Positions 3,069-21,780 of a stretch of DNA of 30,655 nucleotides are shown piece by piece; position 1 is the stretch's first letter; every line of letters starts with the position of its first letter. The translations under genes were made by a program, and so were the position numbers. The notes below the pieces were generated by a model. It was not told the DNA's origin. It saw only the letters and a program-made list of their open reading frames with translations, and did not search any database. Source of the stretch: Physcia stellaris (lineage: Eukaryota > Ascomycota > Lecanoromycetes > Caliciales > Physciaceae). The stretch lies in NCBI GenBank assembly GCA_018902385.1, contig JABSSW010000099.1, positions 1 to 30,655 of the forward strand, in the 5' to 3' direction.

Positions 3069-3340
3069 TTTCTTGAATTTTCAAAATTTTTGATTTGATT
3101 AACTGCATTCTTGACCGAGCATTAGTTTTAGTCTTTTTAATCGTTTTCCAAATTTTCAGATGAAATGTTGATTTTGTTGTTTTAAAACGAACGCAGTAAA
3201 TATTGTTGATTTCACGATTGTTAATTTCACGATGATTTCGCTCGTTTGTTTTCGAGAAATTGCAAACGAATTCGTATGTTTGCTGATTTCGAGCAACACA
3301 TGAAGATATTGAAAACTATGTAAATTTCAAGTCTCGTAAT

Positions 3341-4141
3341 CTAGTGACATCGTGACAGCGATTTGAAATTGAGATTTTTAAATTCGATTGTTCTAAAATC
3401 ATCGTTGAGACTAGAAAAAAAGTAATTGATAAAAAATAGATGTATCGATTCTTGAATATTTTCAAGCAAAAAAGATGATCTTGATTCTGAATGCTGATGA
3501 ATGATATTCGAAAAAATTCTTGATGTTTTCGAAACAACGATCTTCGAGATAGAATTCTGAAAAACTGATATTGAATTTAACATCGAAACAAAAAACAAAT
3601 GCTGATTTCTTTAAATAAATAAATAAAAAAATCGAAAAACTCTCGGAAGTGAAAGAATGATTGCAATATCGAAATGTTGATGAAAGTTGAACAATTTCCG
3701 AAATTGATATTAGAGACTATCGCTAAAGATCGAGAGAATATGATCGATTGATAAAAAAAACAAACGTGTTTTCAGGCGACTTTGAAACAAAAAAAATAAT
3801 TTCGATGTTGATGTGTTGACGAAATGTTGAATCAGAAATATGTGAATTTCTTGACGATATTTGAATCAAATACGAAACTTTTTGATTGAGTATTGAAATT
3901 ATCGAAGCGGATAGAAAGAATGATCGAATTCTTAATAAAATAAATCTAATTTTGAAGAATTTTCGAAAAAAATAAACGATTCGAGTTCGACCGAAAAAAT
4001 AAAATTTTCGATGATTTCTGACGAAAACGAAATTTGATGAACGATTTTTACAAATGCAAAATTATTGAAATTGAACGTTAAAAAACTCGAAACTTGATGA
4101 TCTTTTGATTTATACAAATATGTGAATAATGTCGATAGCAT
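3341..4141 (-). pseudogene. N-terminal Ser/Phe-rich part of ZLE ORF, copy A
   Basis: This is the 5' part of the ZLE coding region, read on the minus strand in several short frames (4141-3932, then about 3598-3341). It is rich in Ser, Phe, Ile and Asn and has no recognisable domain. The composition is what a Pro/Ser-rich sequence would become if CCN codons turned into TTN or TCN. It corresponds in position and style to 13736-14047 in copy B. No start codon can be chosen with confidence. Confidence 0.35.
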
Positions 4142-4493
4142 GTTTCAATCGTCGTCATTGATTGTTTCAAATGAATTATCACGTTCGATGAAATCAAACA
4201 ATTTATGTTACAATAATAGCAAAACAATTTCGTTTCGTTAATCGAAATTTAATATGAAAATTGACATTCGAAATCGCTTTTTCAAAAAAAGTGATTTTGC
4301 AAATAAAATTCGATTTAATTTCAAATCGTCTAAATTTCGATTTCACGTGAACAAAACTACGTTTTCATTTAACACGTTTACGAATTTATGAATTTCAAAC
4401 GTCCTAAATCTTCGCATTTGTTTGATATTGTTTATTGAAATTAATTTGACGTATTTCGAGCAGCTTGAAGAAATTAAAATGACTTCGATATAA
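4142..4493 (-). other. ZLE leader between LTR and coding region, copy A
   Basis: No coding potential is visible. This is the stretch between the 5' LTR and the first ZLE coding remnants, so it is the likely untranslated leader. It is longer than the equivalent in copy B (14048-14234). The bases next to the LTR, CTTCGATATAA on the plus strand, match TTTCGATATAA in copy B and may overlap a primer-binding site. I cannot assign a tRNA. Confidence 0.4.
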
Positions 4494-4729
4494 TGTGAGA
4501 TGTCATGCATTGATATGATACTAATCGTAAATTACACGAAAATATCGAATGAGAAAAGCAAATATCTAGTAAATCTGCGAAACGTCTATGTAGAAAATTT
4601 GATTTTGAATGCGTCAAGACGAATTTCGACTTTGTCATTCGATGTGATAAAATAAAATGTTAACTTTGCAAAATGTTGAATTCGAAATGTTAATTTTGCA
4701 AATGTTGAATTCGATACACGCTCGTCGCG
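4494..4729 (-). repeat. ZLE copy A LTR (5' LTR in coding direction)
   Basis: The sequence aligns along its length with 8888-9082, 14235-14429 and 28385-28601. It begins TGTGAGATGTCATGC, where the other LTRs read TGTGAAATG. It ends TCGCG where the others end TCACA. It is 236 bp rather than 195 bp, partly because a segment ending AATGTTGAATTCGA is duplicated at about 4659-4713. The 5 bp after it are CAGAA; the matching target duplication would be off the left edge. Confidence 0.8.
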
Positions 4730-5010
4730 CAGAATTGACATAATGAAAAATCTTTTTGACAAATAATAATAACGATGACGAATTTTTCGACGAATTTCAA
4801 CAATGTCATCAACAAACGACGTCGTAAAAAACTTCGCATGATTAAATGTGATAAAATCAAAATCAAAATCAATGACAACGAAATTTTTGCGATCGTGAAT
4901 TCAAAAACAAAAATTAATTTGATAAATAACGTTTTGTTAAAAAGTTTAAATTAATATTGTTCGACGTTTTTTTTGCGAAATCATGATTTTTGATAATAAT
5001 CAGTTCAAAA
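4730..5010 (+). pseudogene. G1 Gypsy protease remnant
   Basis: Plus-strand translation shows a retropepsin-like site: IFAIV, then Asn-Ser-Lys-Thr (codons from 4898) where Asp-Ser-Gly-Ala is expected, then INLINN and a Leu-Lys-Ser-Leu-Asn segment. The catalytic Asp is Asn and the Gly is Lys, both explained by G-to-A at AG or GG. The aspartic protease would have cut the Gag-Pol polyprotein. Gag itself is not in the window; it would lie left of ZLE copy A. Confidence 0.5.
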
Positions 5011-6160
5011 TTTATGAAATTATATTTCGTACGATAAGAAAATTTCGAACAAGAAAGACGTGAATCGTTTTTTTCAACGAAAACTTTCTAGAAATCGATT
5101 TATTTTTAAAATATATCGTTAGATTTTCATGATTTAAATTATCAAAAACAGAAATGAATTGAATCGCAAATAAAATTCGATTTTGACAATTATCAATTCA
5201 AATTTTTTTTTCATCATGAATCGTATTGAGAAAATCGAATAAAAAAACTAATCAACGATGTGATTGATAAAAAGAATGAAATTTTCGTTATGTTCGTACG
5301 ATCGTTTCGTGACGAAAAAAATGATTTGAATGAAATACATATCGAACGACGAATTCAAGTAAATTCAATTTTAATGAAAATAAAAAAAGTCAAATATCAA
5401 GATCATCATATTCGAAATTCTGAAAAAATTCGTAGAAATTTCGAATGAGAAAAAGATTTACGAATTGTTTGCGTATAATTTGACGATCACGTTTAATAAA
5501 TTTGAAATCGAAAAAAAAATCATTTTATGAATTTATTTATTTTTATTTGAAAATGAATTAACGATATTGAAAATTTATTTTGACAAACATTTGAAAACGA
5601 TTTTATCAAATCGTTTATTTTCGCAACAAAAATTTCGATTTTATTCGTCAAAAAAACGAAAATTTACGATTGTGCGTGAATTACAAAAATTTAAATCTGT
5701 TAATCATTAAAAACAAAATTTTTTATCGTTAATCGACGAAAGTTTAAATCGTTTTAACAAAATTTGTATTTATACAAATTTTGATATAATCGCAACATAC
5801 AATAAATTTCGTATCAAAAAAAATGATAAATGAAAAACAAAGTTTCGAATTCGTTATAAACATTTTGAATATATCGTTTTATTTTTAATTTCATTAATGC
5901 ATTTGCAACGTTTCAGAAATTCGTTAATAAAATTTTGACAAAACGATTCGATTTTTGCGTTATAATATATTTTGACGACATCGTCATATATTTTATGAAT
6001 CGAAAACAACATATTGAAAACGTCAAATGAATTTTACAACGTTTGAAAAAAAACAAATTTTTATCAACAACGAAAATGCAAATGATTCACAAACAATATC
6101 GATTTTTTGAATTTTGTCGTTTTTTCGAAAAACGTGCAAATGCAAAAAAAGAAAATAAAA
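5011..6160 (+). pseudogene. G1 Gypsy reverse transcriptase remnant
   Basis: The fingers and palm of a Ty3/Gypsy reverse transcriptase are readable in the plus strand across frameshifts. The catalytic box reads YFDDIVIYF with both aspartates intact (codons from 5968), followed by RKQHIENVKWILQRLK, a typical Gypsy post-YxDD helix. Upstream, MKNKVSNSLWTFWI (W from TGA) and a FATFQKFVN segment match the usual RYGHFEY and ATFQ regions. The enzyme copied element RNA into DNA in the cytoplasmic particle. Many TGA codons replace Trp, so it cannot be translated. The 5260-5448 open frame is the PR-RT linker. Confidence 0.75.
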
Positions 6161-7325
6161 ACGATACAAAATTAATTTGCATCGCGAAAACGTCAAAGAA
6201 AATTTAAAATTTTTGAATTTGTGTAATTTTTACAAACGTTTCAAGAATTTCAATAAATTGATATTATTTTTAATTTCGATGCTAAAAAAATCAACAAAAT
6301 TTCACAAAAAAATCAAACGTAAACGATTTGCAAACAAAAATCGAAATAAAAATCGAAACAAAAAACGTGTGTCAAACAATTTTTGATTTTCGAAATTTTC
6401 GAATTTTTCAAACATTTGCGAAAAACGTTTTGAAAAATTTTCATTTGCGATATTTCGACTCGATTAAATTTATTCGTATAAAAATCGACGTTTTCGACAA
6501 AACAATCGATAATATTTTCAATCAATCAAATCATGAAAATCATTGACATTTTGTAATTTATTTTTCGAAAAATGATTTCGATCGAATGCAATTACGAAAT
6601 TTACAAAAAAAGTTTTTGACAATTGTTTTCGTTTTCAAACAATAACTTCATTATTTTGAAAAAATCAAAAACAAATTTTAATTTTGACGAATCATCGAAA
6701 TTTCAATCGTTTCATGTTAATTACAAAATTTACATTTCGACAAATGCGATAAATTCAAAAATTGTTTCGTTATAATTTCGTTATCGATTATCGATTTGAC
6801 AACAAAAATTTTGCGAACGATTTGTTTCGACGATTTGATTATATGAAAATCAACGAAAATGAAATCGAAAATAATCGTCAAATATTGACACAATTACGAA
6901 AATTTTTGCAAACGAATTTAAACGAATTTCGTACGTGCGTCGATGCGATTCAAACAACAATGCAAAAATCAATTCAAAAAAAAATTGCGAATTCGAATTT
7001 TATCGAACAAACAACGTGCGAAATCGACGATTTCGTTATTATCGACAATGCATCAAACGTGATCGTTGACGAATGAAAAATTTTCATGTTGAATAATGCA
7101 ACAATTTTCGAGTCGATTTTCGCGATGATTGCGCGAAAACATATTCAAAAACATAATACAACGTATAAATGCGACAATGAAACGATTGACATCATTGTCG
7201 ATCGAATTCGATCATTGTTGAAAAAAATTCATGCGCGACGTCGAGAAAATGTTTCATTGTTTATCGACATAAAGTTTACAAACGAATTATGCAAATTGTA
7301 TAAACGTTATAAATCGACTTTTTAG
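6161..7325 (+). pseudogene. G1 RT thumb, RNase H and linker remnant
   Basis: The connection subdomain reads FLNLCNFYKRF (6177-6386 frame), the standard FLGLxNFYRRF motif with Gly changed to Asn. RNase H follows in the 6328-6546 frame: LRYFDSIKFIRIKIDV, then HWHFVIYFSKN with W as TGA. The tail at 6762-7076 reads YNFVIDYRFDNKNFAND, equivalent to the DFVIDYRPGxxNxxAD end of Gypsy RNase H. The remaining frames to 7325 are the spacer before integrase. G1 is then interrupted by an unrelated insertion at about 7326. Confidence 0.75.
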
Positions 7326-8690
7326 TCATTAAACAGTGAATAGCAATATTTAAATCGATTTCGAGTCATTTAATCAACAATAACAAGTATTTAAATCAAC
7401 ATAAAACGTCAAAAGTCGAAAATCAATTGTAGAAATTCGACGTTGATTGAAAAAATCTCAATTAATTTTAACGTTTTCGCGTTTTTTGATGTTCGTTGTC
7501 AAAACAAACTAACGAGAAACGCGTAACGACGTCGTTATCAACGCTATAAAAAATAATTTTAGTTTTGAAAAATTCACGTATTTTTCACATAGAAAGATTT
7601 AATTTATGATATATTACGTGTATCATAATACACTTTCTATAAAAAAATGTTCAGTAAATTCGCTTGACGCGAATGATCGACCGGGAAGAATTCTGATCAA
7701 TACGAGAATTTCTTTGTTTAAAGTCGATAAATTCAATCAATATTTAATTTTTGTTTTCAATCGAGACATACGTCAAGATCATCTCAAAACGTTTCAACAA
7801 CGTGCAATTATTGCACATGTTGCACATCAATCAGCAATCACATATGATTTTCATTTATTCAATCAAAATTGTAAAGCAAAATGAGCGCATTTCAACGCTG
7901 TAAAAATGAAAAAAATCGACTCATTATCGCAATAGTTATGAGATCTCGAAAATTTCGTCGTTGTCAGATTTGTGTCAAATCGTCAATTGAGATGTTTGCG
8001 AAATGATTTCGCTCAATTCTTTTTGATTTGTACAGTTGTTTCGCGTTTTGCATTTCAATCAATAATCACATATGATTTTCACTTATCTAGTCATGATTGT
8101 AAAACAGAACGAACGCATTTCAATGCATCAAAAATAACGAAAATCGATTCATTATCGCAATAGTTTTGAGTTTTGAAAGATTGCGTCGTTGTCAAATTCG
8201 TGTCGACTCAATTTTTCTCGCAATGTTTGCAATGCAATAATGCGATTTTCGTTACAACTCAATGCGCACTCGATCGATTTTCGATATTTTTGATTGTTTG
8301 AATAAAATTAGTTTCGTGTTTCAATATGAATTTTTCATTGTAAATTTTGTTTATTGAAAGTGCAAATGTTATTAAAATGCGAAATTCGTGAAATCGCAAA
8401 GCAATGACGAGATGTCGAGTTTCGCAATTTTATCAAATGCAATTTTAACTTTGAAATCGTTTCGAAAAGAATTTTTTTAAAAAATTCCGAATCTGTTTGT
8501 ACATTACATAACAATTAAATAAAAAAAAATTTGTTTTTGATGACTAAATGACTTAAATACGTGAATAATTTGTTTAATTGATTAAAATTTTGCTATTCAT
8601 TGTTTAAAGTTGATTCAATTGACTCAAATAATTCAAAATCGACTTAAATATTGTCATTTTTGATTCAATGTTACGAATAAACAATGTTTT
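7326..8690. mobile_element. 1.4-kb non-coding insertion with inverted subterminal repeats
   Basis: This stretch sits between G1 RNase H and later G1 sequence and matches no retrotransposon domain. Its left end (7329-7400) and right end (8545-8680, reverse complement) share AATATTTAAxTCGATTT, GAGTCAxTTxAATCAAC and AAACAxTGAATAGCAA. The 9-mer ATTTAAATC at 7348 and 7389 faces GACTTAAAT at 8550 and 8641. Such inverted subterminal motifs are common in non-autonomous DNA transposons. I see no transposase and no clear target duplication, so the exact ends are uncertain. The two open frames inside (7606-7884 and 7972-8163) overlap the tandem repeat and match nothing I know. Confidence 0.45.
7827..8206 (+). 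repeat. Two ~150-bp direct repeats, 228 bp apart
   Basis: Unit 1 is about 7827-7978 and unit 2 about 8054-8206. Shared landmarks are CAATCACATATGATTTTCA-like starts, GAGCGCATTTCAACGC against GAACGCATTTCAATGC, CATTATCGCAATAGTT (7922 and 8150) and TTGTCAxATTxGTGTC (7961 and 8189). The offset is constant at 227-228 bp, so this is a tandem duplication inside the 1.4-kb insertion. Differences are mostly transitions. Confidence 0.7.
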
Positions 8691-8887
8691 TGACTAATCG
8701 ACTAATCGATTCGAAATCGAATTTTAGCGCAAAAATCAATAAAAATATTTTTTCGACGAATTCAAATGAAACAAAAATTAATTATTTTTGATACATTATT
8801 TCGACATTAACATTACGAAAATAAAATATTATGACACGAAAACTGTTTGTACGTTTCGTCGAATTTGAAAAAACATCATTAATACAA
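8690..8887 (+). pseudogene. Probable G1 pre-integrase spacer, cut by ZLE copy B
   Basis: Plus-strand translation with TGA read as Trp gives HYENKILWHENCLYVSSN, which resembles the strand motif before the integrase zinc-binding region in Gypsy elements (xENRLYVPxN). The end at 8887 is exact because the next base begins the left LTR of ZLE copy B and 8883-8887 is the target duplication. The match is short, so the assignment to G1 rests partly on position. Confidence 0.4.
8883..8887. other. Target-site duplication TACAA, left of ZLE copy B
   Basis: The five bases TACAA directly before the left LTR are repeated directly after the right LTR at 14430-14434. A 5-bp duplication is typical of retroviral-type integrases. 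Confidence 0.8.
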
Positions 8888-9082
8888 TATGAAATGTTAT
8901 GCAAAAATATAGTACTATTACATAATTACACGAAAATATCGAAATGAAAAACAAATACATGAAAATTTGACAAAACATATGTAGAAAATTTGATCATAAA
9001 CGAATTTCGACTTTAACATTCGATGTGATAAAATAAAAATGTTAATTTTGTCAAATGTTGAATTCGATACACGTTCGTCACA
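8888..9082 (-). repeat. ZLE copy B left LTR (3' LTR in coding direction)
   Basis: It starts TATGAAATG (TGTGAAATG in the partner, so TG has become TA) and ends TTCGTCACA. The intact partner shows the 5-bp inverted ends TGTGA and TCACA. The bases just inside, read on the minus strand, are a purine-rich run (GAAAAAAAAACGAAAAATAA) suited to a polypurine tract next to a 3' LTR. Confidence 0.9.
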
Positions 9083-9312
9083 TTATTTTTCGTTTTTTTT
9101 TCAATTTCGTCTCGAAACGATAATTCATTATTTTTTCTTTTTTTATCGATCGACAAAATACGTAATTTCGATGATTTGTTCGTAAATGCGTAAAATTTAT
9201 AACGAACGCGACAATCGTGAAAACGTACAAAAGTTTGAAATAAAAACGACAAAAACGACGAAAACGACGAAAACGACGAAAACGACGAAAACGATGAAGA
9301 AAATTTCTGCAA
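9013..9312 (-). pseudogene. Ser/Phe-repeat tail at the 3' end of copy B
   Basis: The minus-strand frame contains a run of Ser-Ser-Phe triplets encoded by a 9-bp repeat (ACGACGAAA on the plus strand, about 9247-9295). Phe was probably Pro before CC-to-TT change. The frame runs on into the LTR, so its C-terminal part is not a real coding end. The same triplet array occurs in copy C at about 28755-28800 with a slipped phase. Confidence 0.4.
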
Positions 9313-9319
9313 ATTATTT

Positions 9320-10035
9320 GATTTTGTATTTGCGAAAATCGTTGAATGTCAAAAATATTTGACGTTTAATATGATAAAACGATCGTTTTCTCAAAATAGG
9401 AAAATTTTTCAAAAAGTTTGCGTTTGAATCCAAATGTGAAAAAATTATTAAAACATTTGAAATATGCAAAAATATCGCGTTCTTTTGTATAACAGAAATT
9501 CGTTTTTTTGTAAATTTCAAAGCATGCAACAATGTTCATTAATGATTAATACAAATACAAAATAGAAAAAATGAAAACGTTTTCGAAATTTAATTCGAAA
9601 TTTAATCGTTAAACATGAATTATAATATTTGCAATTTGATAAATCGATACGTCAATTGAAAATATTCGATATTTCAAAGTTTTGAAGCAGATTGATAGAG
9701 ACGAAAAAATGTTTTTTTGAGTTTTTGATCAAAATATTGATTCGCTTTTATCAAACTTTCAATAAAAATAAAAATATCTGTGTTTTGATGACGAATGCAA
9801 ATCTATACGAAATATTTAAAATCGAAATTATTGCAATCGATAAAAGAATTGATTTGCAATCAATTCGCGAAATTTGCAAACGATGACGTAAATGACGAAA
9901 TAAACAAACGATCGAGAATTTGTTTTTCAAAATTTAGTACGTAGTTTAAAGTGTAAAAAATTGAAAATTCGAACTTTTGAATGTAATGAAAACATTAATG
10001 TAAACGTTTCGCATTAATGTAAATTTTGAATTTTG
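9320..10035 (-). other. Copy B interior without recognisable coding
   Basis: From about 9563 this aligns with positions 1-480 of copy A, including a GTGTAAAAAATxGAAAAxTCGAACTTTTG stretch (near 400 in A, near 9950 in B). The fragmentary frames (9314-9532 minus, 9692-9886 plus) show no domain. Copy C lacks this region: its sequence passes from the counterpart of about 9320 to the counterpart of about 11020. Confidence 0.5.
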
Positions 10036-10433
10036 CAACATCAAATCGATTATACAATGAGACGAACAATTTGATTATGTTAATAAAATTATCGCAACAA
10101 TTTTTAACGCATTGATATTTTTGCATATGCGAAAATTGATGTGTACATTGCATTTAATAAAATATCAACGTAATGAATTTTTTGAAAAATGATCAATTCA
10201 TATAATTTTTCGCGAATAGTTTCGACGACAGTTAATAAACAAACAATTGAGAATTTTCGAAATTTTCAAATCGATTATATCATGAGACAAACAGTTTCAT
10301 CACATTAGTAAAATTAACGTAACAACGATTAACGCATCGATATTTGAACGCATGCGATAATCGATGTATACAATTCATTTAGCAAAACGTGTATGTAATA
10401 AATTTTTTGAAAAATAGATAATTTTTGCGAATC
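10036..10433 (-). repeat. Two direct copies of the ~165-bp ZLE unit, copy B
   Basis: Unit 1 is about 10036-10200 and unit 2 about 10266-10433. They share AAATCGATTATA, CAATGAGACGAACA/CATGAGACAAACA, GCATATGCGA/GCATGCGATA and AATxAATTTTTTGAAAAAT. The same pair is in copy A at 484-850, so the duplication predates the split of these copies. Confidence 0.6.
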
Positions 10434-10514
10434 TTATAGATAATTTCGATGAAATAATAAAACATTAATATAAACGTTTATTTCTCGTCTCTTTTCAATT
10501 TCGTTTCGAAATGA

Positions 10515-10781
10515 TCAATTTAACATTCTCATTGATTGACGAAATGTATGATTTTTATGAATCATTCGTAAATGTTTATGTAAATCATTATTGAAATCGA
10601 ATTGATCAAAACAAATGCGACAACAACGAGAAAAATCAAAAAAAAAACGAAAAAGACGAAATTGACGCGAAAAATTTTCGCGAAACATATGAAACTTCGA
10701 AAATTTCATTTCTGAAAAATTTAAAAAATGTTTGACAGTTTGTATGATAAATAGATCGATATTTTTGACAGAACAAAACAA
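10515..10781 (-). pseudogene. ZLE C2H2 finger 3, copy B
   Basis: This 88-codon minus-strand frame carries a complete C2H2 pattern at about 10557-10622: C-x2-C-x12-H-x4-H, reading CRIC, FDQFDFNNDLHK, HLRMIH. The Phe and Leu at the hydrophobic core positions fit a classical finger that binds one zinc and typically contacts nucleic acid. In the coding direction it is the last finger of the protein. The frame is bounded by stops from mutation; originally it was probably continuous with the upstream fingers. Confidence 0.6.
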
Positions 10782-10947
10782 ATCGATTTCGCAAACGTAA
10801 ATTGTTGAAAATTTTTCGATTTTGAATTTTTCAAATTTTGACTAATCGATGTTTTCTGATTGATTGCAAACAGAAAATAAACGATAATGCGAAATTGATA
10901 TGTGAACGAATGTTGTCGTTTTGTGAAAAAACAAAATTTTTTTGATG

Positions 10948-11424
10948 TTAACGTAAATCAAATAATTTGAACTTTTCGACAAACATGCGACTCAAATCAT
11001 TCACAATCAGATAAAATTTCTGAATGTGAAATTCTTGATGTTTTCGAATTGAATGAAACGATGAAATAAATGAAAAAATGAAAAAACAAACGACAATTGC
11101 GTTCTTCATCGATTTTGAATTAATTTTGTATGTCGCAATCGAGAAATTCGAATATTTCGATAATAAAAATTGCGAAATTATTTTCGTCGAAAATATTTGA
11201 CTTCGTGATGTTGCAAAAAAAATAAACGAACATTCAATTGCTGATTTTTTCTTGATTTTACATGTAAATTTTTCTGTAAAAATTCGAAAATTAAAATTTT
11301 TAGTCGATTTTCGAGCATGATGTTGACGTATATGCTCGTGAAATTTGTTATTGAAATTGAAATTTTGTTTGCAACGTTTGCAAATTCGAGCGCAAACGAT
11401 TTGTTGAATCGAAAATTTTTTCAT
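10948..11424 (-). pseudogene. ZLE C2H2 finger 2 and conserved linker, copy B
   Basis: This is the longest uninterrupted ZLE coding piece (158 codons). A finger at about 11317-11382 reads CKRC, KQNFNFNNKFHE, HIRQHH, giving C-x2-C-x12-H-x3-H. Downstream is a linker with RSQIFSTKIISQF, NFSIATYKINSKS and, near the end, IRKHQEFHIQKFYLIVND, FVEKFKLFDLR. Many Phe and Ser probably replace Pro. This linker recurs twice in tandem in copy C. It resembles repeat-encoded ascomycete proteins I have seen with an IATHK motif, but I cannot name a domain. Role unknown; it could be a nucleic-acid-binding Gag substitute. Confidence 0.6.
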
Positions 11425-11629
11425 CGATTTTGATGCAAATTCGAATGTTGATAATTGAAAAATTGTTCGTTCAATTTCTAATTTTACGCGAATGCGAACA
11501 GTTTGAATTCGAAATGCTGTGAATCATTTTGCGATAAATTTCGCATTTTTGTAAATAAAACAATTGTTGATTTTTTTGCGATTTCGCACGTTGAATTGAC
11601 TGTATTATTCAAAAGAAATGAACAAATGT

Positions 11630-12013
11630 TTAAAAATTCTTTAAAAAAATTTCTTGAAATTTTGATTCGAACGTTCGAAATGATGATTTCGACGAAATGT
11701 TAAAACATTGAATTGATTTATTTTCTTTCGATTCTGATACAGTTTTTGATGTATAAATTGAAAAATGCGTATTTTTTAATATTAATTCAAAAATTTGCTT
11801 TGATGTTGCAATAGAAATATCAAATTTTTGCAATGCAAACGCAAAAAGCGAATCATTGATCGTTGATTTTTTTTCATTTTTGCACGTCGATTTGATTGCA
11901 TCGATAAAAAAACATGAATTGATAATTGAATGTTTTCGAACATTTATATATTGATGTTTTTGAGCAGAAATTTGTAACACATGTGAAAAAAATGAAACGA
12001 TCAAATATTGCAT
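11630..12013 (-). pseudogene. Inter-finger Ser-rich linker, copy B
   Basis: Two overlapping minus-strand frames cover the linker between fingers 1 and 2. The residues are rich in Ser, Lys, Ile and Phe, with no domain recognised. It has a copy of the ZLE leucine/lysine motif in degenerate form (CKNEKKST). A frame change near 11880-12010 joins it to the upstream finger piece. Confidence 0.35.
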
Positions 12014-12503
12014 CGATGTGTTTTTTGTCGATTTCGATACAGATTCGAATGTAAATGATGAAAAAATCGAACGTTTTAATAAAATGATTGATTTGAATGT
12101 TGTTGCAAATTCGAATATCGAATTTTGAAATTTCGCAAATGAAACAAATAATACGTGCGTGACGAATGATTTTTTTCTCGATATCGCATATTAAATTGAT
12201 TGCATTGATCGAAAAATGAAAAATTTTGACGAATTTCAAAACTTCATGATTGCGAACATGCTCGTATAATTTTTTATTGAAATTGAAATTCTGTTTGCAA
12301 AGTTTGCAAATCACTAAAACAAATGTAAATTTAAAATTTGATAAATTCTCGATCGATTTTGATATAACATCGAATGCATTTAATTGAAAATGCGAATTTT
12401 TCGATAAAATACGTCGCGAAAAGACTTTTGCAAAAGAAAATGCTTTTGTAAAAATCTTATCGAAACGTTTCAAAAAATGAACTTTAATTGAATTTTGAAT
12501 CAA
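11874..12503 (-). pseudogene. ZLE C2H2 finger 1 with linkers, copy B
   Basis: This 209-codon minus-strand frame is the largest in the window. The finger at about 12246-12308 reads CKLC, KQNFNFNKKLYE, HVRNH, a perfect C-x2-C-x12-H-x3-H. About 25 residues later comes the recurring motif INAINLICDIEKK, also seen at about 2060-2110 in copy A and 30390-30440 in copy C. The absence of Gly, Pro and Trp over such a length is the footprint of CC/GG loss. Confidence 0.6.
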
Positions 12504-12745
12504 TCAAATGCAAAATCACATAAACAATTCGACAATAAATTCAGCAAATTTGATTTTCGATATTGATATCGACATTGTTGAAAATATTGCAGAAAATTCG
12601 CGATTTCACTGTACAATTCGAATTTTGATTCATTACATGTTGTTGAATCGAAGATATCGATATTCTGAAACGTTAATGTTGATTTAACAGTTTGTTTTGT
12701 TTTCGAAATTTTCTTGAATTTCGAAATTTCGAATTTAATTTTCAA
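12500..12745 (-). pseudogene. ZLE conserved block upstream of finger 1, copy B
   Basis: This minus-strand piece (81 codons) aligns with 2883-3068 of copy A when frame changes are allowed: both have a TLTFQNIDIFDS/NIEISKYRYFRFN core and a YRKSNLLNLL/YRKSNLFMLL segment. No function can be assigned. Conservation between two copies suggests that it belonged to the coding part. Confidence 0.4.
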
Positions 12746-13735
12746 TTTCTGTTGTTTTTGCGAAATAGACGATTTTGATGAAACGAAAATTGATTGTATC
12801 GTTGCAAACTCGTTTAAAAAAATGTTTTCGTCAAAACGATATCGAAATCGTGTAATGAAATAAATTTAAATTGATCGTCGAGTCATGCATTGACAAAATC
12901 AATAAAAACGATTATCAATAAATCGAGCAATTTTGACTCGCAGTAAAAATGTAAACATTGTTGAAAATGTTGAAAAAAATTTGCGATGTGATTGAACAGT
13001 TCATCTTCAAATCAATTGTAAAAAAATGTCGAATTGAAAATTTCAAATTCATCGAACATTGAAATCATCGCAAAAACGAAAAATATGAATTTATTTTATC
13101 AATGAAACGAATGCAAATTCAAATTAATTTTCAAACACAATGAATGAATTCAATGTCGAATGTTGATGTAAAGTTTCGCTAAAATTTTTTTGTCGTTATT
13201 GATAAAACGATATTGAATTTAACGTCGAAACGAAAAAAAAAACAAATTTTTTGCTAGTGAAACAAATATGATTTCGCAATGATCTCGATGAAAACGAATA
13301 ATTTCAATATTGATTTCTTATCGAAGTATTGAACGAAAATATGAAAAATCTGAAAAATTGATTCGAAATTTGAATTTCAAAATGTAACAATTTTATCATC
13401 GATACGAAAAAAATTAGATTGATTTGCAAAATCGACAGATGTAATTTTTGAAAACTTTCAAAAATCAAAAATGATTCAGATATTGATTTGAAATTGTCAA
13501 TATTGAAAATTTTGTCGAAAAATTGATTGATTTCTTGATTCGAATATTAATGCTATCATTGAAAAAAAAAAGAAAAATCGTTTCATTAGAATCAACAAAC
13601 ACGTTTTCGAATTGCTTTGCGAACAAAAAAAATGATTATATTATCAAATGCTGAATGATTTTCAAATAGAATATTGAACGATTTCTTGATTCGATATTGA
13701 AACTATCGAATTAAAACGAGAAAACGACTGTTTTG
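12746..13735 (-). other. Copy B interior, heavily stopped coding relic
   Basis: About 1 kb with only short frames on either strand. By position it matches 3080-3900 of copy A, the Ser-rich N-terminal half of the ZLE reading frame. TGA is the commonest stop in the minus frame, as expected of Trp codons. I see no domain. Confidence 0.4.
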
Positions 13736-14047
13736 TTAAGAAAATAAATAGAATTTCGATATGTTTTCGAAAAAAATAAACGATTTCAACTCGTTGAAAG
13801 AAATGAAAGTTCGATCGAAAATTTCTGATATAATGTCAAGATTTTTGATCGAATAATGAAATTTCTGATTCGATTTTTGTTCGAATATTTTTTGTGTGAT
13901 GTTTTCTTGATGATTTAAATTTGATTTGATGATTTTCTGAATTTCAAACACGAATGCTTCGTCAAAAATGATAAAAATTGTTGTTGTTTGTAAATCGAAA
14001 TTATCGCGTAGATTCGTCTGTTTTAAACGTTTTTTAAAACAAAGCAA
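13736..14047 (-). pseudogene. N-terminal piece of ZLE ORF, copy B
   Basis: This 103-codon minus-strand frame begins about 190 bp inside the 5' LTR and is the first coding remnant of copy B. It is rich in Phe, Ile, Asn and Gln and ends with a Phe-Ile-Phe-Phe-Glu-Asn segment that also occurs near 3950-3970 in copy A (SFIFFENSSKLDLFY). No domain is recognised. Confidence 0.4.
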
Positions 14048-14234
14048 ACGAATTTATTATGTTTCGTTTTTTTCAATTCACAACGAGTTTATTATGTTTC
14101 GTTGTTTTCGTTGAATGATCAAAATCAGATTGAATCTATTATGTTTTTATTCGTTTATTGAATTTGACAAAAGTTTTGTTTATTTAATGTTTGCGTATTT
14201 TATAACGAACATGACGTGAATGATTTCGATATAA
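14048..14234 (-). repeat. Leader of copy B with a short tandem repeat
   Basis: The stretch GAxTxTATTATGTTTCGTT occurs about three times between 14050 and 14150 with decaying similarity. It is non-coding and lies between the 5' LTR and the first coding remnant. The bases next to the LTR (TTTCGATATAA) match copy A. Confidence 0.5.
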
Positions 14235-14429
14235 TGTGAAATGTTATGCAAAAATATAGTATTATTACATAATTATACGAAAATATCGAAATGAAAAGCA
14301 AATACATGAAAATTTGACAAAACATATGTAAAAAATTTGATCATAAACGAATTTCGATTTTAACATTCGATGTGATAAAATAAAAATATTAATTTTGTCA
14401 AATGTTGAATTTGATGCACGTTCGTCACA
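14235..14429 (-). repeat. ZLE copy B right LTR (5' LTR in coding direction)
   Basis: It is 195 bp, begins TGTGAAATGTTATGC and ends GTTCGTCACA, with the 5-bp inverted ends TGTGA and TCACA. It differs from the left LTR by about nine transitions. Four are CT/AG-type changes, four CA/TG-type and one CG-type, as if the preferred sites were already used up. Confidence 0.9.
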
Positions 14430-14434
14430 TACAA
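14430..14434. other. Target-site duplication TACAA, right of ZLE copy B
   Basis: The five bases after the right LTR equal the five before the left LTR (8883-8887), which fixes the element ends to the base. Confidence 0.8.
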
Positions 14435-15640
14435 ATCATAACAATTTTTTAATCGAAAATTTCGATATAAAACGCATTTTAAAATTGATACGTCGAAAAT
14501 ATTATTGATCGAATTAAAAACGAAATGATCAAAAAAACATCAAACATAATTTCAACATACGTGCACAAATCAAAAAATATTGCGAAACATACGTCATTTG
14601 CAAAAAAAAACAAAATTTTCGTCACAAATTATACGAAAAGTTTTTTTTTTCAATATCGAAATTCAAATGAATTGATATTATGTAAAAATCAAAACGTTGA
14701 CGAAATAATGTCTAAACGCAAATTACGTGACTAAATTTTATATACACAAATCATGTTTTTACACAATAAAAAATTAATTTATCGTTTTTCAAATCACAAA
14801 GTTTCAACAGAATTTTTACGTCGAATTAAATTTTGATTGAATCACACATCGCAATGACTCGATTCTCGACGAATATTCATGATTCATATATAACGATTTC
14901 TTTTGCGCTTTTTTTTTTTTATCACAATTTCAAATCTCGAGATTTCGATTATCGTTTGACAAAACATTTTCAAAATCACAACGTGAATAATATTATGAAT
15001 TTTTGTGACATCGTTAACATTTTTTGATCAAAAATTGATTCGCAACAATGAATATAACGTTTCAACAAACGATCGATGCGTTGTCGTTTTCAATTCAAAT
15101 TTTGAATTTCAAAATAATGTATCGTTAAAATCGCGAAATTTACGATCAAATCATTGTTCATTGCGAAATGAAACAATTCGTTCAATCAAATTTCAAATAA
15201 CAATGCAAAATTCTGATTATAATAATCATTATTTTGTTTGAATATTCGAAGTCAAAACAATCGAAATTGCAACGAAATCAAATCAAACGTCATGAATTGA
15301 ACAAAGCACGAACAATTTTCAAAATTTTCGAAAAAGCGAACTCGATGAAAAATGAAAATAAAAAATTTTGAATTATGTTTTGAAATTGCGCGCGACGCAA
15401 ATAAAAACAACGTTTCGAATTGCTTTGTAATCATGTTGCGAAGAAAAGAGTCTTAACTTGACGAAAAAAATGAATTGAAAGTACACGAGCGCTGATATAA
15501 AATAGAAACTGCAAACTGTAATAAGAAAAAAAAAGTAACAAATATAGAAATTGATCGTTGTTGAATTCGAGAATTGTCTTGTTATGAAATGTATTCGCAG
15601 TAATTGTTATACACAATATAATTGTCATTTCTTTTCAAAT
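14435..15640 (+). pseudogene. G1 segment between ZLE insertion and integrase core, poorly recognised
   Basis: By position this should carry the G1 spacer and the integrase zinc-binding (HHCC) region. Open plus-strand frames at 14525-14734, 14833-15027 and 15005-15241 have the same composition as the rest of G1, but I cannot identify the HHCC ligands. The stretch just before 15640 reads FSNSSQWIDITMNF with W as TGA, which runs straight into the integrase core. The part 15430-15640 keeps more CT and AG than its neighbours. Confidence 0.35.
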
Positions 15641-16006
15641 TCGAGTCAATGAATTGACATAACAATGAATTTCGTGACAAATTTATTCGAAAATAAAACA
15701 TGAAACGAAATTGTATACGATTCAATATTCGTCGTAATGAATAAATTAACGAAAATAACACATTATATTTTCGTCACGAAAACGATGATTGCAAAAGATT
15801 TCGTCGAAATTTTGATACGTGAAATTATAAAATTTCATGATTTTTCGTCGTCAATAACAACAAATCGAAATTTTATTTTCACGTTCAAATATTATGATTC
15901 GTTGTGTTACGTATTCAAAATTAAATTCAAATTATTTACAATATATCATTCGCAAATCGATGATCAAACAAAACGACAAAACAACATTATGAAACAATAT
16001 TTTTGA
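15641..16006 (+). pseudogene. G1 integrase catalytic core, DDE triad destroyed
   Basis: The core reads WIDITMNFVTN, WNEIVYDSIFVVMNKLTK, ITHYIF, SSITTNRNFIF and YHSQIDDQTKRQN, the standard order of a Gypsy integrase core. All three catalytic acids are gone: Asn for Asp at 15668, Asn for Asp at 15863 and Lys for Glu at 15971. Each is a G-to-A change at a G preceded by A or G. The enzyme joined element DNA to the host chromosome. A TGA at 16004 stands just after the helix that follows the third catalytic position. Confidence 0.8.
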
Positions 16007-16990
16007 ACGTTTATTAATTTCGAACAAAACAATTGAATGAAATTATTGTTTATGACGAAATTCGTTTACAACAACAATAAACATGCGTTTATTCAAATAT
16101 CATCATTCGAAATCATGCAAAAATACATTTCAAAAATGTCATTCGAAAATTTCGCGAATTTAAAAATAAATCAAAATTTGTCAACGAACATGTCAAATAT
16201 TTGACAAAGTTGTTAAATATATTTAAAATCAATTTAATTCACGTTCAAAAGCAACAAATTAAATACAAAAATGTTAAAATTAAAACGTCGATGAAATTCA
16301 AAATGAAAAGTTATATTAATTTTAACGTCAAAAATATTCGCACAAAACGTAATAAAAAATTCGAATGAAAATTTTTCGAATCATTCAAAATATTCGAAAC
16401 TATAAAAAATCAAATTTATCGTATAAATATATCAAAACGTTGACGAATTCACAATGTTTTTCATGTATCGTTTTTTGAAAAAGTCAAAACTAAACGAAAA
16501 AAAAAGTTTCGTTAAAGTTCACATATCAATTCAAAGATATTGACATCGAAAAAAACGAAAACACAATAAAAATATACGACGTTGAAACAATTAAAAATAA
16601 TAAAATTTTCAAAAAAAAATCAAATTTCGAAAAAATCATACAACGAATCAAATTTTTACTATTTTATTCGTTGAAAAAATTATAAAAAACGCATTTGAAA
16701 ATCAATATCGATGATCAAACATTTGAAAAATTTGATACGAATATTTTACATAAAAAATTCAAAAAAGAACGATGTCAACAAATTGTCAAATCGACGTCGT
16801 ATTCGACGTCAAATAAATGCAATTTTTTTGATGAAATCATTGATTAAAAAACAAATTCGTCAATGATTTTGTGTTGTTTATTGTCAAAAGTTTACGTCGC
16901 ATAAAGAATTGACTTATGTCAAAAACATTTTCAAAATTTGTTGTTCGATTTAATTGAACGTCGAATATCGTGATAAAATAAAAATAAAAA
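16007..16990 (+). pseudogene. G1 integrase C-terminus with chromodomain
   Basis: The C-terminal half continues through several frames: EQNNW-like and YNNNKHA segments, then a WRIHNVFHVSFFE-like motif near 16430-16480, and an acidic NTIKIYDVETI stretch at about 16561. A chromodomain-like string follows at about 16640-16760: YYFIRWKNYKKR, IWKSISMIKHLKNLI with Trp as TGA. Chromodomains steer such elements to methylated-histone heterochromatin. From about 16893 the tail FTSHKELTYVKNIFKICC is shared with G3 (27543). Confidence 0.65.
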
Positions 16991-17593
16991 ATCGAAAAAT
17001 TTTTCGAAATTTGATATATTCAATGCGATCGCGTTTATTCGACGTTTTTTGCGTTTAATCATTTTCTTTTGAACAATTCGTCGATTTCAATATTCGAAAC
17101 AGAAAAATAAAAAGATAATAATTGATTTAAATTCAAATTTCATTGTCATTCAATTAGTTGTCAATCATCAAATCGAAAATCGTGAATTGTACGAAGTCAA
17201 ATTCTCGATATTGAAAACAACGAGCGATGAAATTATCAAATCATGTTTTTTTTTGAATCATTCAAAAAGATGTACTTTCAAATTTTTAACGCAAATTGAC
17301 TAGAAATCGAATAAAATGATAAAATATTCGATGCGAAAATCACGATCACAATAATTTTTCAAATCATAAAATTTTCGAATGCGAAAATCGCGATTACAAC
17401 GATTTTTCAAATTTCATGAATATAACATATGAATACAAATTTACAATTTCAACAATGATTCAAATCAAATAATATTGTTATTTCAAAAAATTTCGATGTT
17501 TAAAAGAAAACGCGTGTAAAAAATTCAAAATTCAAAATTTGCAAAAAGTACGAATCGCATTTCGATTGTCAAAAATTCAAATTTTGCAAATTC
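16991..17593 (+). other. Unassigned AT-rich stretch with a 47-bp direct repeat
   Basis: No domain is recognised. An open plus-strand stretch at about 17155-17300 (VNHQIENRELYEVKF) faintly resembles a chromodomain start but is too short to call. A segment beginning GCGAAAATCxCGATxACAA is repeated at about 17334 and 17381. G1 must end somewhere here, but I find no LTR. Confidence 0.35.
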
Positions 17594-17755
17594 GAAACAT
17601 TAAATCGATTATATCATGAAACAAACAATTTCGTCATATTAATAAAATCAACGTAACAACGATTAACGTATCGATATTTGCGCATATGCGACAATTAATA
17701 TATACGTTGCATTTAACAAAACGTGTATATAATTAATTTTCTGTAAAATAATTAA
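17594..17755 (-). repeat. Isolated copy of the ~165-bp ZLE unit
   Basis: It aligns with 10266-10433 of copy B: AAATCGATTATATCATGAxACAAACAxTTTC, ATTAATAAAATxAACGTAACAACGATTAACG, GCGCATATGCGA and AACAAAACGTGTAT. No ZLE LTR or finger lies next to it. It is either a fragment of a ZLE copy or an independent short repeat that ZLE acquired. Confidence 0.6.
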
Positions 17756-17888
17756 TTTTGCAATTATTAATTTACGAACAATATTATTTTTATTACATTA
17801 TATATTTTTGATGTTTATACGTTTTATAATGTTCATTGAATTTTTTTCGATGTTCATTGAATTTTTCGTTATTGATATTTGTGCGAAA

Positions 17889-18118
17889 ATATTAAAAATC
17901 GCGAAAAACACAAAAACACGAAAAATCGTGAAAAACACGAAAATACGAAAAGTCACGAAAAGCACGAAAACACGAAAAGTCGTGAAAAACACGAAAACAC
18001 GAAAAATCGTAAAAAACACGAAAATACGAAAAGTCGCGAAAAGCACGAAAACACGAAAAATCGTAAAAAATACGAAAACACGAAGAGTCGCGAAAAATAC
18101 GAAAATTCAAAAAAATAA
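17889..18118. repeat. 27-bp minisatellite, about eight units
   Basis: Units of 27 bp follow each other from 17904, built from CACGAAAACACGAAAA followed by GTCGCGAAAA-like ends. The period is nine codons and the unit has no stop in several frames, so long open frames appear on both strands; one reads KHENTKSRE repeated. That openness follows from the repeat and is not evidence of a gene. Units differ mostly by A/G or C/T changes. Confidence 0.85.
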
Positions 18119-18129
18119 AATTCGTGCAT

Positions 18130-18410
18130 GATAAAAAAATGTCGAAATTGTTTGATTTTCGATCAATGAAATCGAAATATTCGAAAAAACGTTAATGAAT
18201 GAAAATTGTGAACGAAAAAAAATATTGAAATTGTCGATTCGTTAATCGATCGAAATTTAATATACGATAAAACGTTGATAAATGCGATTTGTAAACGAAA
18301 AAAAAATTAAAATTGTTGATTCGTTAAACAATCGAAACAAAACGTTCGATAAAACGTAAAACAATTTCGAAAAAACGTTAAAAATATTGAACAATGTTTT
18401 TGCACGATTT
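18130..18410. repeat. Three imperfect ~83-bp tandem units
   Basis: Starts near 18135, 18224 and 18307. Each has AAATTGTxGATTCGTTAA-like beginnings, CGATxGAAA, CGATAAAACGTT and a GTAAACGAAAAAAAA-type end. The stretch is non-coding. Confidence 0.5.
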
Positions 18411-19142
18411 GTAAAAAAAAATCGTTAAATTTATATTTTAATTCGCGATTTGTTCGTATCAAATTCAATTATGACAAAAAATTCGTCGTAAAAAATGTTG
18501 CATTATCGTATTTTTTATTTAAAATTTATATTAAATTTTGAATTGAAACATTTGAATTTTTTCGTTTTTTTGAATTTTTAAAAATATTCATTCGATTTAT
18601 TATTGCATTTTTTATTATCGAACGTATTCAATCGATATTCGAATACGTTTTTGCGAAATTATTAAAAACGTTTAAATTTTTGTAAATACGTACGAACGTA
18701 TCATTTGTTTCACGTTAACGAAATTTCAAAATTGTTTTTTTAATTTTTTTGTTCGAAATTTTTGATTTTTTTTTCAAAACGAAAATTTTTGTTTTTTTAT
18801 ATTTGTTCAACAATCGTTTTTAATTTTAAACGATTCATTGATAATTTTTCAATCAATTGATAAAAATCGATTATAAAACGTTTTATTTCGTAAAACAAAA
18901 TATTCACAAAATTTCGAACATTTCGTATCAAATTTTCAACATGTATGTTGTGTGTTTTGTATTTCAAAAAACTTTTCAATTCGTCGATATAATTAAAAAT
19001 ATTAAATCAAATTATTAAACGTTGATTTATTTATTTCAAAAAAACATTAATACAACGTTCGATTGTTTTTACGAATATTAATTTTACGAATGTTTTTACG
19101 AATGTCATTGTTGATTTGAAACTCATTAATAAAACATAAACA
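18411..19142. other. AT-rich stretch, no recognised gene
   Basis: Only one modest frame stands out, minus 18797-18979 (60 codons: ELKSFLKYKTHNIHVENLI, FYQLIEKLSMNRLK). It is Lys- and Asn-rich, possibly helical, and could be a scrap of a retrotransposon Gag, but I have no firm match. The rest is runs of A and T with scattered CG and CA. Confidence 0.3.
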
Positions 19143-19355
19143 AATCAAAATTTTGTAAATTTACGCAATTTTTCGAAATTAAATTATAAAATATTAAATG
19201 AAAATTTAAATTTTGCAAATTTAAACAATTTTTTTGCAAATTCAAACAATTTTTGAAAATTGATTTGTGAAATATAAAATGAAAAAATCAAAATTTTGCA
19301 AATTTGAACAATTTTTGAAAATTGATTTGTAAAATATCAATTGAAATGAAAATTG
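19143..19355. repeat. Three AT-rich repeats, 60-85 bp
   Basis: Units begin near 19144, 19204 and 19286. Each carries AAATTTTGCAAATTTxAACAATTTTT and usually GAAAATTGATTTGTxAAATAT. The stretch is non-coding; spacing varies because part of unit 2 is internally duplicated. Confidence 0.6.
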
Positions 19356-19848
19356 CATTTATAATTTAAAAAATCAAATTCGAAAAAACGAAACAAACAA
19401 TGAAATTATTAAAAAAAAAAATTTGCATGTCGATTATTAATTTAAATCAAATAAATTTTCACGATCGTTGTTTTTTATTTTTTGACACGTAATTGTTAAT
19501 ATTTATTGTTTTTATTTCATTTGATATTTTACGAACACGTTATTGAAAAAAATGTTTGTTTTGATTTTAAACAAAAACAAATTTTCAAAAATTACGAATT
19601 GAAATATTTTGTTTTGTTTTTAAACAATTCAATTTAAATGCAATTTTTTTTTGTAAATTACACATTTATTTGTTGAATTTTGATCGTATTTTGAAAAATT
19701 CAATCGACGTAATAATATTTTCAAAATATAACGATTTTTAAAATCGAATTTGTGTATTAACGCGATTTTTTTTTGCAATAGAATTTTTCTTAATTGATGT
19801 GTATTACGAAACAGATTTTTATTATTTTTTTGACGTTTTAAACGTGAC
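19356..19848. other. AT-rich stretch, nothing recognised
   Basis: No coding, RNA or repeat structure is seen. CT and AG remain rare, as in the rest of the heavily mutated block. The change to the CT-rich sequence of G2 occurs at about 19849. Confidence 0.4.
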
Positions 19849-20031
19849 TGTTGATGTATTGAATGTAAAAAGTTTGATTAGCTATCTAGAAATCAATGAT
19901 CAGATATATATCATAGTAATTACATAAGCAAATCACTCAATTGACTGAGTGTCAATTGATTGATTGAATGTTAAATACAGAAAGTCTGTCTATTTTGTTT
20001 TCAAATTCTAATCACATGTCAATTCATAACA
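19849..20031 (-). repeat. Candidate 3' LTR of Gypsy element G2
   Basis: Read on the minus strand this 183-bp stretch begins TGTTATGAATTGACATG and ends ACATCAACA, plausible TG...CA LTR ends. It lies 97 bp beyond the G2 stop codon, where a 3' LTR belongs. Its left end coincides with the switch from heavily mutated to lightly mutated DNA. A CACTCA/TGAGTG stem with a 6-base loop lies near 19935. The second LTR is outside the window, so the ends are not proven. Confidence 0.45.
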
Positions 20032-20127
20032 ATCTGTTTCAATAGAAAGAAACTAGCATTCGTTTCGATGTTATTCGTATCAATATCATTTCACATATCA
20101 ATATTAATCACGTATTTAATCATACAG

Positions 20128-21288
20128 CTATTCGAGTCGAGAAATTCGACGAATCAAAACGTTAAAAGAAACATCAACGATCGAAATCTTAAATGAAATG
20201 ATAATGACAAATCTTTGCTCAAAGAAAATCTCGACAAATGAAATTGTGAAAGACTTTCGAACTAAAGTCGTGAAAATTGTGAAAAATTTTCGAATTGAAA
20301 CTAGTTTGAAAGATTTTTTCAATATGATTCGTTTGATAATTGATTTAACTAACTTTGACGATGATATGAAAAACGAATTCGCAAATTCATCAAATGAAAT
20401 TAATCGATTTGACAAAATACTTTGATTCATAATTGTTTCATATTTTTTCACGAAATTCATAACATTTTCAAGTTTCGAAAAATTTCGTCAAACATCATGC
20501 TCTGACTCGTAGTTTTTTCATTCAACAAAATATTCAACGTTTCGCTTTTTGATCATGCGCTTGTTGATAATGCGTGACAACTCAAAAAATTTGACGTTAA
20601 TTGTATCGTCGTTCACAAAGACGAAATCAAAATGATTTGATTTAAAACGCTTGAAAAAATCAGTCGATGACGACGAGCATCTTTTCAGTTGAATTACGTT
20701 GAAAATCGAATGAATAAATCAGTTGCTAAAAATATTCAATCGATAAATCAGACGATCAATCTTCTCGATAATAGTAAAAAATTCAACGAATTGTTGATCA
20801 TATTTTTTGCTGATAGTCGAAAGTATATTATAGTCTTTGTGTAATTTGATGAGCGCGACATTTTTTTGTTTCATAAACATCGATTGATGTTTTCTGTCAT
20901 AATGAAACTTAGCATTTATTTGATCAAAAGCTATGACATCACTAGCATTTTGACGAGTGATAAAACGACGCTTCTTTAACGTGAGCTCAGAGATATCGAC
21001 GTCGATAAATTTAGTCAAATCAATGATTTGAACTGAAATAAAATCATAGACGATCTCATTTGAAAAGTTGTCAATGTTAATTGAATTGTTGAAATCTCGT
21101 TGCATTTGCGACAGAACGTCAAATCAAAAATCAGAATATTTCAGAATAGAAATCAGAAAGCGAAAAACGATTTCAACGATTTGATTAATTCGTTTCGACA
21201 AGTCGTTCGTTTGAAAATGATAAACAATTGAATACAAAAATTTAACTTCTAGTCTGATAAACATAGCAATTCACATATTTGATAAAAA
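20128..21288 (-). pseudogene. G2 Gypsy integrase C-terminal half with chromodomain
   Basis: Reading leftward from the G3 insertion: RKFLSNM, then YHFQTNDLSKRINQ (integrase core, with Lys at the third catalytic Glu), then the 128-codon frame 21105-20719 with FIDVDISELTLKKRRFITR, NAKFHYDRKHQSMFMKQ and IEKIDRLIYRLNI, all typical of this Gypsy family. A chromodomain follows at about 20440-20577 (RIINKRMIKKRNVEYFVEW, KNYESEHDVW with W as TGA). The last frame ends at 20128 with a basic Ser-rich tail that was probably Pro-rich. It is interrupted at 21289 by G3 and continues at 27999. Confidence 0.85.
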
Positions 21289-21293
21289 CTTTC
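21289..21293. other. Target-site duplication CTTTC, left of G3
   Basis: The bases CTTTC precede the 5' LTR of G3. The matching 5 bp after the 3' LTR are TTTTC (27994-27998), differing by a single C-to-T at a CpT. The G2 integrase frame reads across this junction. Confidence 0.65.
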
Positions 21294-21517
21294 TGTTACG
21301 AGCATGCCTGACAGATAGATTTGACAAATAGATAGTTGATATGATATATGATCGAACAGCGAACTATGCTTTAATTCTACGTTGAAATTAACGTGATTTG
21401 AAATTTGACGTCGCACATTGTTTGCAATTTCAACATTTTGTATTTATTTGTTTTTGCAAATTTATTGTTTTCGTCTAGCTAATCAATAATACGTCTATTC
21501 AAACACGACTCATGATA
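21294..21517 (+). repeat. G3 5' LTR
   Basis: It begins TGTTACGAGCATGCCTGAC and aligns over its length with 27772-27993. The shared sequence ends at CATGATATT (5' LTR to about 21519), so the end is uncertain by a few bases; I place it by the 5-bp target duplication on the other side. About 15 of 18 transition differences between the two LTRs are at CC/CT (or GG/AG). Confidence 0.8.
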
Positions 21518-21780
21518 TTACAATAAATTTTCAATTTTTATCGCTCGTCGTGATACGCGAGCGCTCAAAAATAAAATTTCAAATCGATTAAATTCTTTTG
21601 ACGAAACAAACGACGAAAAGTTTTGTTGATCAAACAAACGATTCAAAAATTCTTTTGACGAGACAATTGACGAAAGTCGTGAAATAACAAGTCGAATTTT
21701 TCACGCAATCGACGATAAAAACGAAAATTGACACGATTAATTTTTTCTCTTTTATCATTTTCAATTTTTCATTTTCAGTT
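21518..21780 (+). other. G3 leader
   Basis: This is the untranslated leader between the 5' LTR and the first Gag-like ATG at 21781. It has no TGG-type primer-binding site next to the LTR; either it has been mutated or priming is of another kind. A repeated TTTTGACGAAACAAACGACGAAA-like element occurs twice (about 21596 and 21653), truncated in the second copy. Confidence 0.4.

Follow-up and report, generated by a model that had tools for sequence, protein, structure and literature searches.

The stretch of DNA analysed here (the window) is the whole 30,655-nucleotide contig JABSSW010000099.1 of the lichen fungus Physcia stellaris, from a genome assembly of 43,974,083 bases in 147 contigs; coordinates are those of the window unless another contig is named. 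Over its entire length (1–30655, no strand assigned) it consists of mutated repeat-rich DNA, with a GC content of 0.17–0.35 per 500 bp and with the dinucleotides CC and GG nearly gone. Repeats in the window and elsewhere in the genome have undergone C-to-T change at CpC and CpT (together CpY), on either strand, with CpA and CpG (together CpR) spared, and we propose that this reflects a process similar to repeat-induced point mutation (RIP) with a reversed choice of 3' base.

A reverse-transcriptase region lies at 24200–25400 (+) in a decayed Ty3-type element, and RVT_1 matches occur inside some of its genome copies. Among the 40 of 301 candidates that were scored, 39 other genome places were 91–98% identical to this region. 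Within it an open stretch of 113 amino acids survives in the reverse transcriptase at 24527–24868 (+), and related stretches are found in other copies. Two direct repeats (family D20, 89% identical), at 21294–21414 (+) and 27772–27892 (+), probably lie within the 5' and the 3' long terminal repeat, respectively. No relatives were confirmed in viral contigs. A zinc-finger-bearing repeat is present as a less mutated copy at 1–4729 (CC 0.16 and CT 0.75 of expected), a more mutated copy within the stretch 8801–14500 and a third, less mutated copy at 28301–30655, none with an assigned strand. Cys/His zinc-finger-like motifs (for example CKRCKQNFNF) were noticed at 10948–11424 (−) and 29302–29592 (−), in frames of this repeat of about three copies. 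The window also contains a tandem repeat with 27-bp spacing (17857–18153, family D1), made of CGAAAA-type words.

The block most strongly hit is 4730–19848 (no strand), which retains 3 CC, 3 GG, 147 CT and 196 AG, with an observed/expected ratio of 3.54 for CG. Compared with 200 single-base shuffles of this block, CC plus GG occurred 6 times instead of 466 (standard deviation 17, minimum 418), and CT plus AG 343 times instead of 1415 (standard deviation 31.5, minimum 1317). The original prediction had been based on the plus strand of 6421–6780, where its count proved exact: of 47 C residues, 24 were in CA, 21 in CG, 2 in CT and none in CC. Its further statement that G is kept only after C or T in this segment holds for all but one of the 36 G residues, 21 of which follow C and 14 follow T; none follows G, but one follows A. 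The signature does occupy 4730–19848, to which it had been assigned, but these limits are too narrow, since the whole contig is covered: the CC observed/expected ratio was 0.16 in 1–4729 and 0.03 in 19849–30655, the signature being weaker in 1–4729 and in the last 2–3 kb of the contig.

The direction of change was read from alignments to an unmutated relative. RVT_1 was scored at 150 of 527 candidate genome places, and 10 were free of internal stops. L055 (also L046; C5:1166220–1167420) is an open-frame relative of the window element, of normal composition, with reverse-transcriptase, RNase H and integrase-zinc domains, and its 1.2-kb core has CC at 0.93 and CT at 1.16 of expected. We aligned 24 distinct decayed copies to this core and counted both strands; the set comprised 18 loci (the 20 cut, less the reference and L056) and a further 6 from among the most mutated of the 30 copies of the window reverse transcriptase. 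C had changed to T at 77–99% of CpC and 44–99% of CpT sites, compared with 2–11% of CpA and 1–5% of CpG sites; the preference for CpA that is a mark of RIP was thus absent. In L003, for example, the changes affected 130/131 CpC, 168/172 CpT, 4/153 CpA and 1/128 CpG, and in the copy of the window itself (L068) CC had become TC at 118/126 sites, CT had become TT at 133/166, CA had become TA at 4/149 and CG had become TG at 2/126. From the counts in L057, L058 and L059, the rate at CpC is calculated to be 2.3- to 2.7-fold that at CpT.

The 5' base mattered little. In the pooled copies the changed fraction was 0.93–0.97 for NCC, whichever of the four bases preceded, 0.77–0.87 for NCT, 0.05–0.06 for NCA and 0.01–0.06 for NCG; in the ten less mutated copies it was 0.82 for CCC, compared with 0.90–0.96 for the other CCN. 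Columns were also counted across 30 genome copies of the reverse-transcriptase region, retaining only those with at least 95% C or T and no more than three gaps. All 140 CT columns had a majority of T, and no CC column was left. Among 167 CA columns, 46 were fixed for C, 35 had one T, 34 more had less than 10% T, 37 had 10–50% and 15 had more than 90%; for 153 CG columns the corresponding numbers were 88, 25, 12, 10 and 15, with a further 3 at 50–90%. CpA and CpG columns therefore vary between copies, but far less than CpT columns.

The same rule was observed in a second element family, for which L045, of normal composition and with 20 genome matches including itself, served as reference. In L051, L053 and L054, respectively, C had changed to T at 150/152, 148/151 and 143/150 CpC sites and at 134/158, 129/159 and 123/158 CpT sites, compared with 4/147, 2/148 and 6/148 CpA sites and 7/150, 7/150 and 9/150 CpG sites. 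L052 was noisier (45 transversions) and gave 124/147 for CpC, 121/153 for CpT, 11/143 for CpA and 13/149 for CpG; across these four copies the change amounted to 1–8% at CpA and 5–9% at CpG. L049 and L050 were discarded for polarising against L045, as they belong to more distant families (58–61% identity, 212–253 transversions). In the zinc-finger-bearing repeat of the window, the sites of the less mutated copies that read T in 8801–14500 were 145/206 CT, 87/460 CA, 72/442 CG and 3/4 CC; in the opposite direction they were 42/88 CT, 36/421 CA and 48/399 CG. This evidence is weaker, because the alignments overlap and ancestry is not established. The change of C to T before a pyrimidine but not before a purine, which the original prediction had deduced from composition, is thus seen directly in polarised alignments of two families, and the third repeat agrees. 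In the part of the genome covered by these copies, the changes did not fall mainly at CpA or CpG, and the unmutated core of L055 was not already devoid of CC and CT.

Ten 4-kb stretches of the genome, taken arbitrarily and irrespective of annotation or copy number, were used as controls. Nine of them were normal (GC 0.47–0.54, CC 0.83–1.04 and CT 0.91–1.24 of expected), and the tenth, L032, was mixed (GC 0.34, CC 0.59). The 30 genome copies of the window reverse-transcriptase region, 4.2 kb each, had a GC content of 0.24–0.29, with CC at 0.00–0.25 (0.00 in 23 of the 30), CT at 0.01–0.38 and CG at 3.0–4.3 of expected. L048, a locus that carries a reverse transcriptase and has no other match in the genome, was untouched. 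As in RIP, the affected DNA in the sampled stretches was repeated and not single-copy, with L055 and L056 as the exception. Between these two, the few C/T differences lean to sites with a 3' pyrimidine (30/666 vs 11/533).

In L003 the changes concerned 298/303 CpY and 5/282 CpR sites, compared with 6/613 for A:T to G:C and 5/1200 for transversions; C:G-to-T:A transitions with few other changes are again as in RIP. Rates were tabulated for 12 decayed copies: the ratio of the CpY to the CpR rate was 51–229, and transversions amounted to 0.3–0.7%. The CpY floor, that is the GC content reached if every CpY changed, was 0.236 for the core, compared with 0.226–0.242 in the six most mutated copies used; for the elements studied here the floor was computed as 23–27% GC. 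The first 900 bp of L057 form a strand-specific block, in which CC had changed to TC at 5/61 sites and GG to GA at 75/82 (Fisher P = 8e-26). The low level of transversions and this one-strand block argue for directed hypermutation rather than slow decay.

The context also left its trace in coding sequences. Stops inside the 150 RVT_1 matches were TGA (250), TAA (33) and TAG (3). The preponderance of TGA is as expected from CpY targeting, by which TGG is the one codon that can turn into a stop, namely TGA; CpA change gives TAA or TAG. Open stretches were listed from decayed loci, and of the longest 25, 22 had no Pro, Gly or Trp, with Gln, His and Arg kept; they represent 15 distinct genome copies, because loci L059–L074 and L001–L030 overlap. 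The other three, with Pro, Gly or Trp, came from L057 (twice) and L050. Pro, Gly and Trp together made up no more than 3% in 107 of 109 homologous open reading frames (ORFs) from databases; as the search needs words shared with the mutated query, these 109 are biased to the signature, and they show the existence of such debris elsewhere rather than its frequency. Many of the database ORFs homologous to the reverse transcriptase (P0075–P0183) have no Pro or Gly, yet several Trp. This suggests that in such contigs TGA is translated as Trp (code 4) during gene calling.

The methyltransferase domain PF00145 had four matches in the genome, at three loci: a DIM-2-like gene (L042) and RID-like genes on C6 (L041) and C5 (L043/L044). 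Judged from their sequences, the two RID-like genes are candidate homologs of the RID/Masc1 type with their motifs kept: both retain the catalytic PPCQ and the later motifs, and they are 39% identical to each other over the methyltransferase core. In an 11-row alignment, the C6-type RID has Q in 5/5 rows just after the catalytic PPC (FSPAQ or FSPMQ), where the other 6 have H (FS.AH); this difference in the motif-IV loop may be a lead on context. The best species-named match of the C6 protein was in Heterodermia aff. obscurata (72%), with closer matches up to 94%. Heterodermia belongs, like Physcia, to the Physciaceae (Caliciales, Lecanoromycetes), and it also gave the best species-named match of the DIM-2-like protein (62%), followed by lichen fungi at 47–53%, which we take to be Teloschistaceae; closer matches reached 93%. 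L042 has the long sequence match and the methyltransferase domain expected of DIM-2, with E = 4e-180 to 9bap_A, an entry that names a cytosine methyltransferase and is presumably DIM-2, and E = 4e-36 to PF00145. Its BAH domain scored below the cut-off (E = 0.0014, 19 bits vs 30.8), the N-terminal end lying outside the fetched locus. A relative, P0184, was also under the Pfam BAH cut-off, and about 15 of the 120 relatives listed, the three closest included, carried no BAH label. The deaminase fold PF00383 had 11 genome matches at E ≤ 0.01, of which 9 exceeded the cut-off.

RIP in Neurospora crassa shares with the process described here C:G-to-T:A change in repeats, near-saturation, a 3'-base context and RID-like plus DIM-2-like genes. 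Its order of targets is reported as CpA > CpT > CpG > CpC (PMC5496416), so that CpA comes first and CpC last, whereas here CpC is ahead of CpT and CpA and CpG are spared. In Trichoderma reesei, RIP also has a context of its own, with CpA and CpG hit most and CpC least (PMC5496416), an order opposite to the one found here. A survey of 10 genomes described CpA, CpT and CpG signatures, with CpT leading and CpA second in M. oryzae and in one B. cinerea strain; its accessible text makes no mention of CpC (PMC4352252). CpA and CpT are the targets in Anisogramma (PMC10998396), and CpT is a target in the control species of PMC7882544, whose accessible main text mentions neither CpC nor Lecanoromycetes. 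These CpT-rich systems (Magnaporthe, Botrytis, Sclerotinia, Anisogramma and the latter control species) resemble ours in having CpT as a target, which predominates in some; in the four named genera CpA is hit too, unlike here, and the accessible sources report CpC-led change in no CpT-rich system. Depletion of CpC and GpG in repeats is common to Stagonospora nodorum and P. stellaris, CpA being dominant in the former (PMC2621366).

Transposons of Basidiomycota carry CpG/TpCpG signatures (PMC4352252), which, as here, consist of C-to-T change in one sharp context; CpG is the target there and is spared here (1–5%, with TCG at 0.014). Cladonia rangiformis, another lichen mycobiont, has strongly mutated retrotransposons and RID and DIM-2 homologs; its accessible main text gives no dinucleotide context, and its transposon DNA is mostly 10–20% GC, under the CpY floor of the elements studied here (PMC12542154). 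Methylation induced premeiotically (MIP) in Ascobolus methylates repeats without mutating them, whereas the repeats here are mutated. Other reports describe CpA plus double changes, including CpC to TpT, in Monilinia (PMC8959702), mainly CpA in rDNA pseudogenes (PMC5555474) and CpA in M. graminicola (PMC4522978). Nothing on mutation context was found in the accessible text of PMC7493409, PMC8545091 and PMC9907504, and 'CpC' in PMC5602860 is a strain number. The original prediction knew of no described fungal repeat-mutation system with this context preference. CpT is already described as a RIP target; CpC-led RIP sparing CpA was not found in the freely readable literature searched, and its absence from print is provisional.

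We infer that a deaminase or methyltransferase of different specificity is responsible, and we give a probability of about 0.87 to a RIP-like, repeat-directed system that turns C into T ahead of a pyrimidine, on either strand, sparing CpA and CpG, and whose writer would be of the RID or DIM-2 type. The direction and context of the changes, their near-saturation, the low background, their confinement to repeats in the DNA sampled and one strand block were all observed. In the proposed mechanism, homology between copies would be the trigger and the sexual phase the time of action, as in RIP; the writer would be a cytosine methyltransferase of the RID or DIM-2 type whose choice of 3' base is reversed, acting on CpC about 2.5-fold faster than on CpT, on either strand and at least once in a block confined to one strand. 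The first candidate for the writer would be the divergent RID-like gene at C6:791557. More tentatively, and at slightly under even odds, a lichen-fungus lineage may have inverted the RIP rule from CpA to CpC and CpT through a divergent RID paralog with a PPCQSFSPAQ motif-IV loop, in which the last Q stands where other RID-type proteins have H.

Several observations weigh against the RIP-like system. L055 and L056 (on C5 and C12) are 96%-identical copies of normal composition and are unmutated, so the system spares some repeats. The GC content of 18501–19500 is 0.18, under the floor for CpY change only; this segment may have been AT-rich from the start. CpY change does not account for the 33 TAA stops, which need another source, and up to 11% of CpA sites are changed in the copies hit hardest. 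In the ten less mutated copies the neighbouring bases had a modest influence, which was largest at CpT (0.63 with G before it, 0.78 with C) and at CCC. Finally, lengthwise profiles of three copies revealed a strand block in L057 only, with none in L058 or L059.

The similar appearance of the entire window would also fit an ordinary bias in composition or codon use, whether of an AT-rich genome or of an element family, or an ancestor without CC and CT. This explanation was rejected, and we give it practically no weight, as nine of ten arbitrary stretches and the open-frame relatives are normal in CC and CT, decayed copies differ from their relative almost only by CpY transitions, and the polarised alignments refute it in two families. 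A free deaminase of the AID/APOBEC or another type, acting on single-stranded repeat DNA, would fit the strand-specific block, and the PF00383 matches provide candidate genes. Known AID/APOBEC-type enzymes, however, read the 5' base, a dependence not found here; since sites are chosen by their 3' base and hardly by their 5' base, a RID/DIM-2-type methyltransferase is favoured over an APOBEC-type deaminase, which we consider very improbable.

Two further alternatives involve DIM-2. One is passive decay without any active mutagenesis, in which CpC and CpT in heterochromatin would undergo DIM-2-type methylation and the resulting 5-methylcytosine would slowly deaminate of its own accord; the genome has a DIM-2-like gene, and N. 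crassa DIM-2 methylation is stated in a review to prefer CpT (PMC13297926). However, the almost one-stranded block of L057 would need a strand-wise episode, and transversions are rare in the 12 copies tabulated. Known excesses driven by methylation are far smaller than the 51- to 229-fold excess of CpY over CpR change in these copies, and we judge slow decay to be quite unlikely. The other alternative keeps directed mutation at CpY and makes DIM-2 in heterochromatin, not the RID-like protein, its writer. In N. crassa, older repeats undergo RIP without RID via DIM-2 (PMC11969663, PMC13297926), the CpT preference of DIM-2 methylation (PMC13297926) points the same way, and nothing direct speaks against it. 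New repeats are nevertheless RID-dependent in N. crassa (PMC13297926, PMC11969663), and the least mutated copies here, L057 and L058, presumably the youngest, already follow the full context rule; DIM-2 as the writer is therefore possible but, in our view, unlikely.

Change at CpY eliminates the codons for Pro, Gly and Trp and creates no stop other than TGA, and the long open frames that are left reach protein databases. Such genomes could escape standard RIP indices, which rely on TpA and CpA, or be misjudged by them, so that systems of this kind may be overlooked. To our knowledge, how RID picks its cytosines is unsettled. Its catalysis is listed as not detected in vitro in the accessible text of PMC13297926. 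A near-perfect opposite 3'-base rule provides a handle on this question, as RID proteins or their loops could be swapped and the mutation context read; if a divergent RID paralog is indeed the cause, comparison of the paralogs would reveal what sets the context of RIP.

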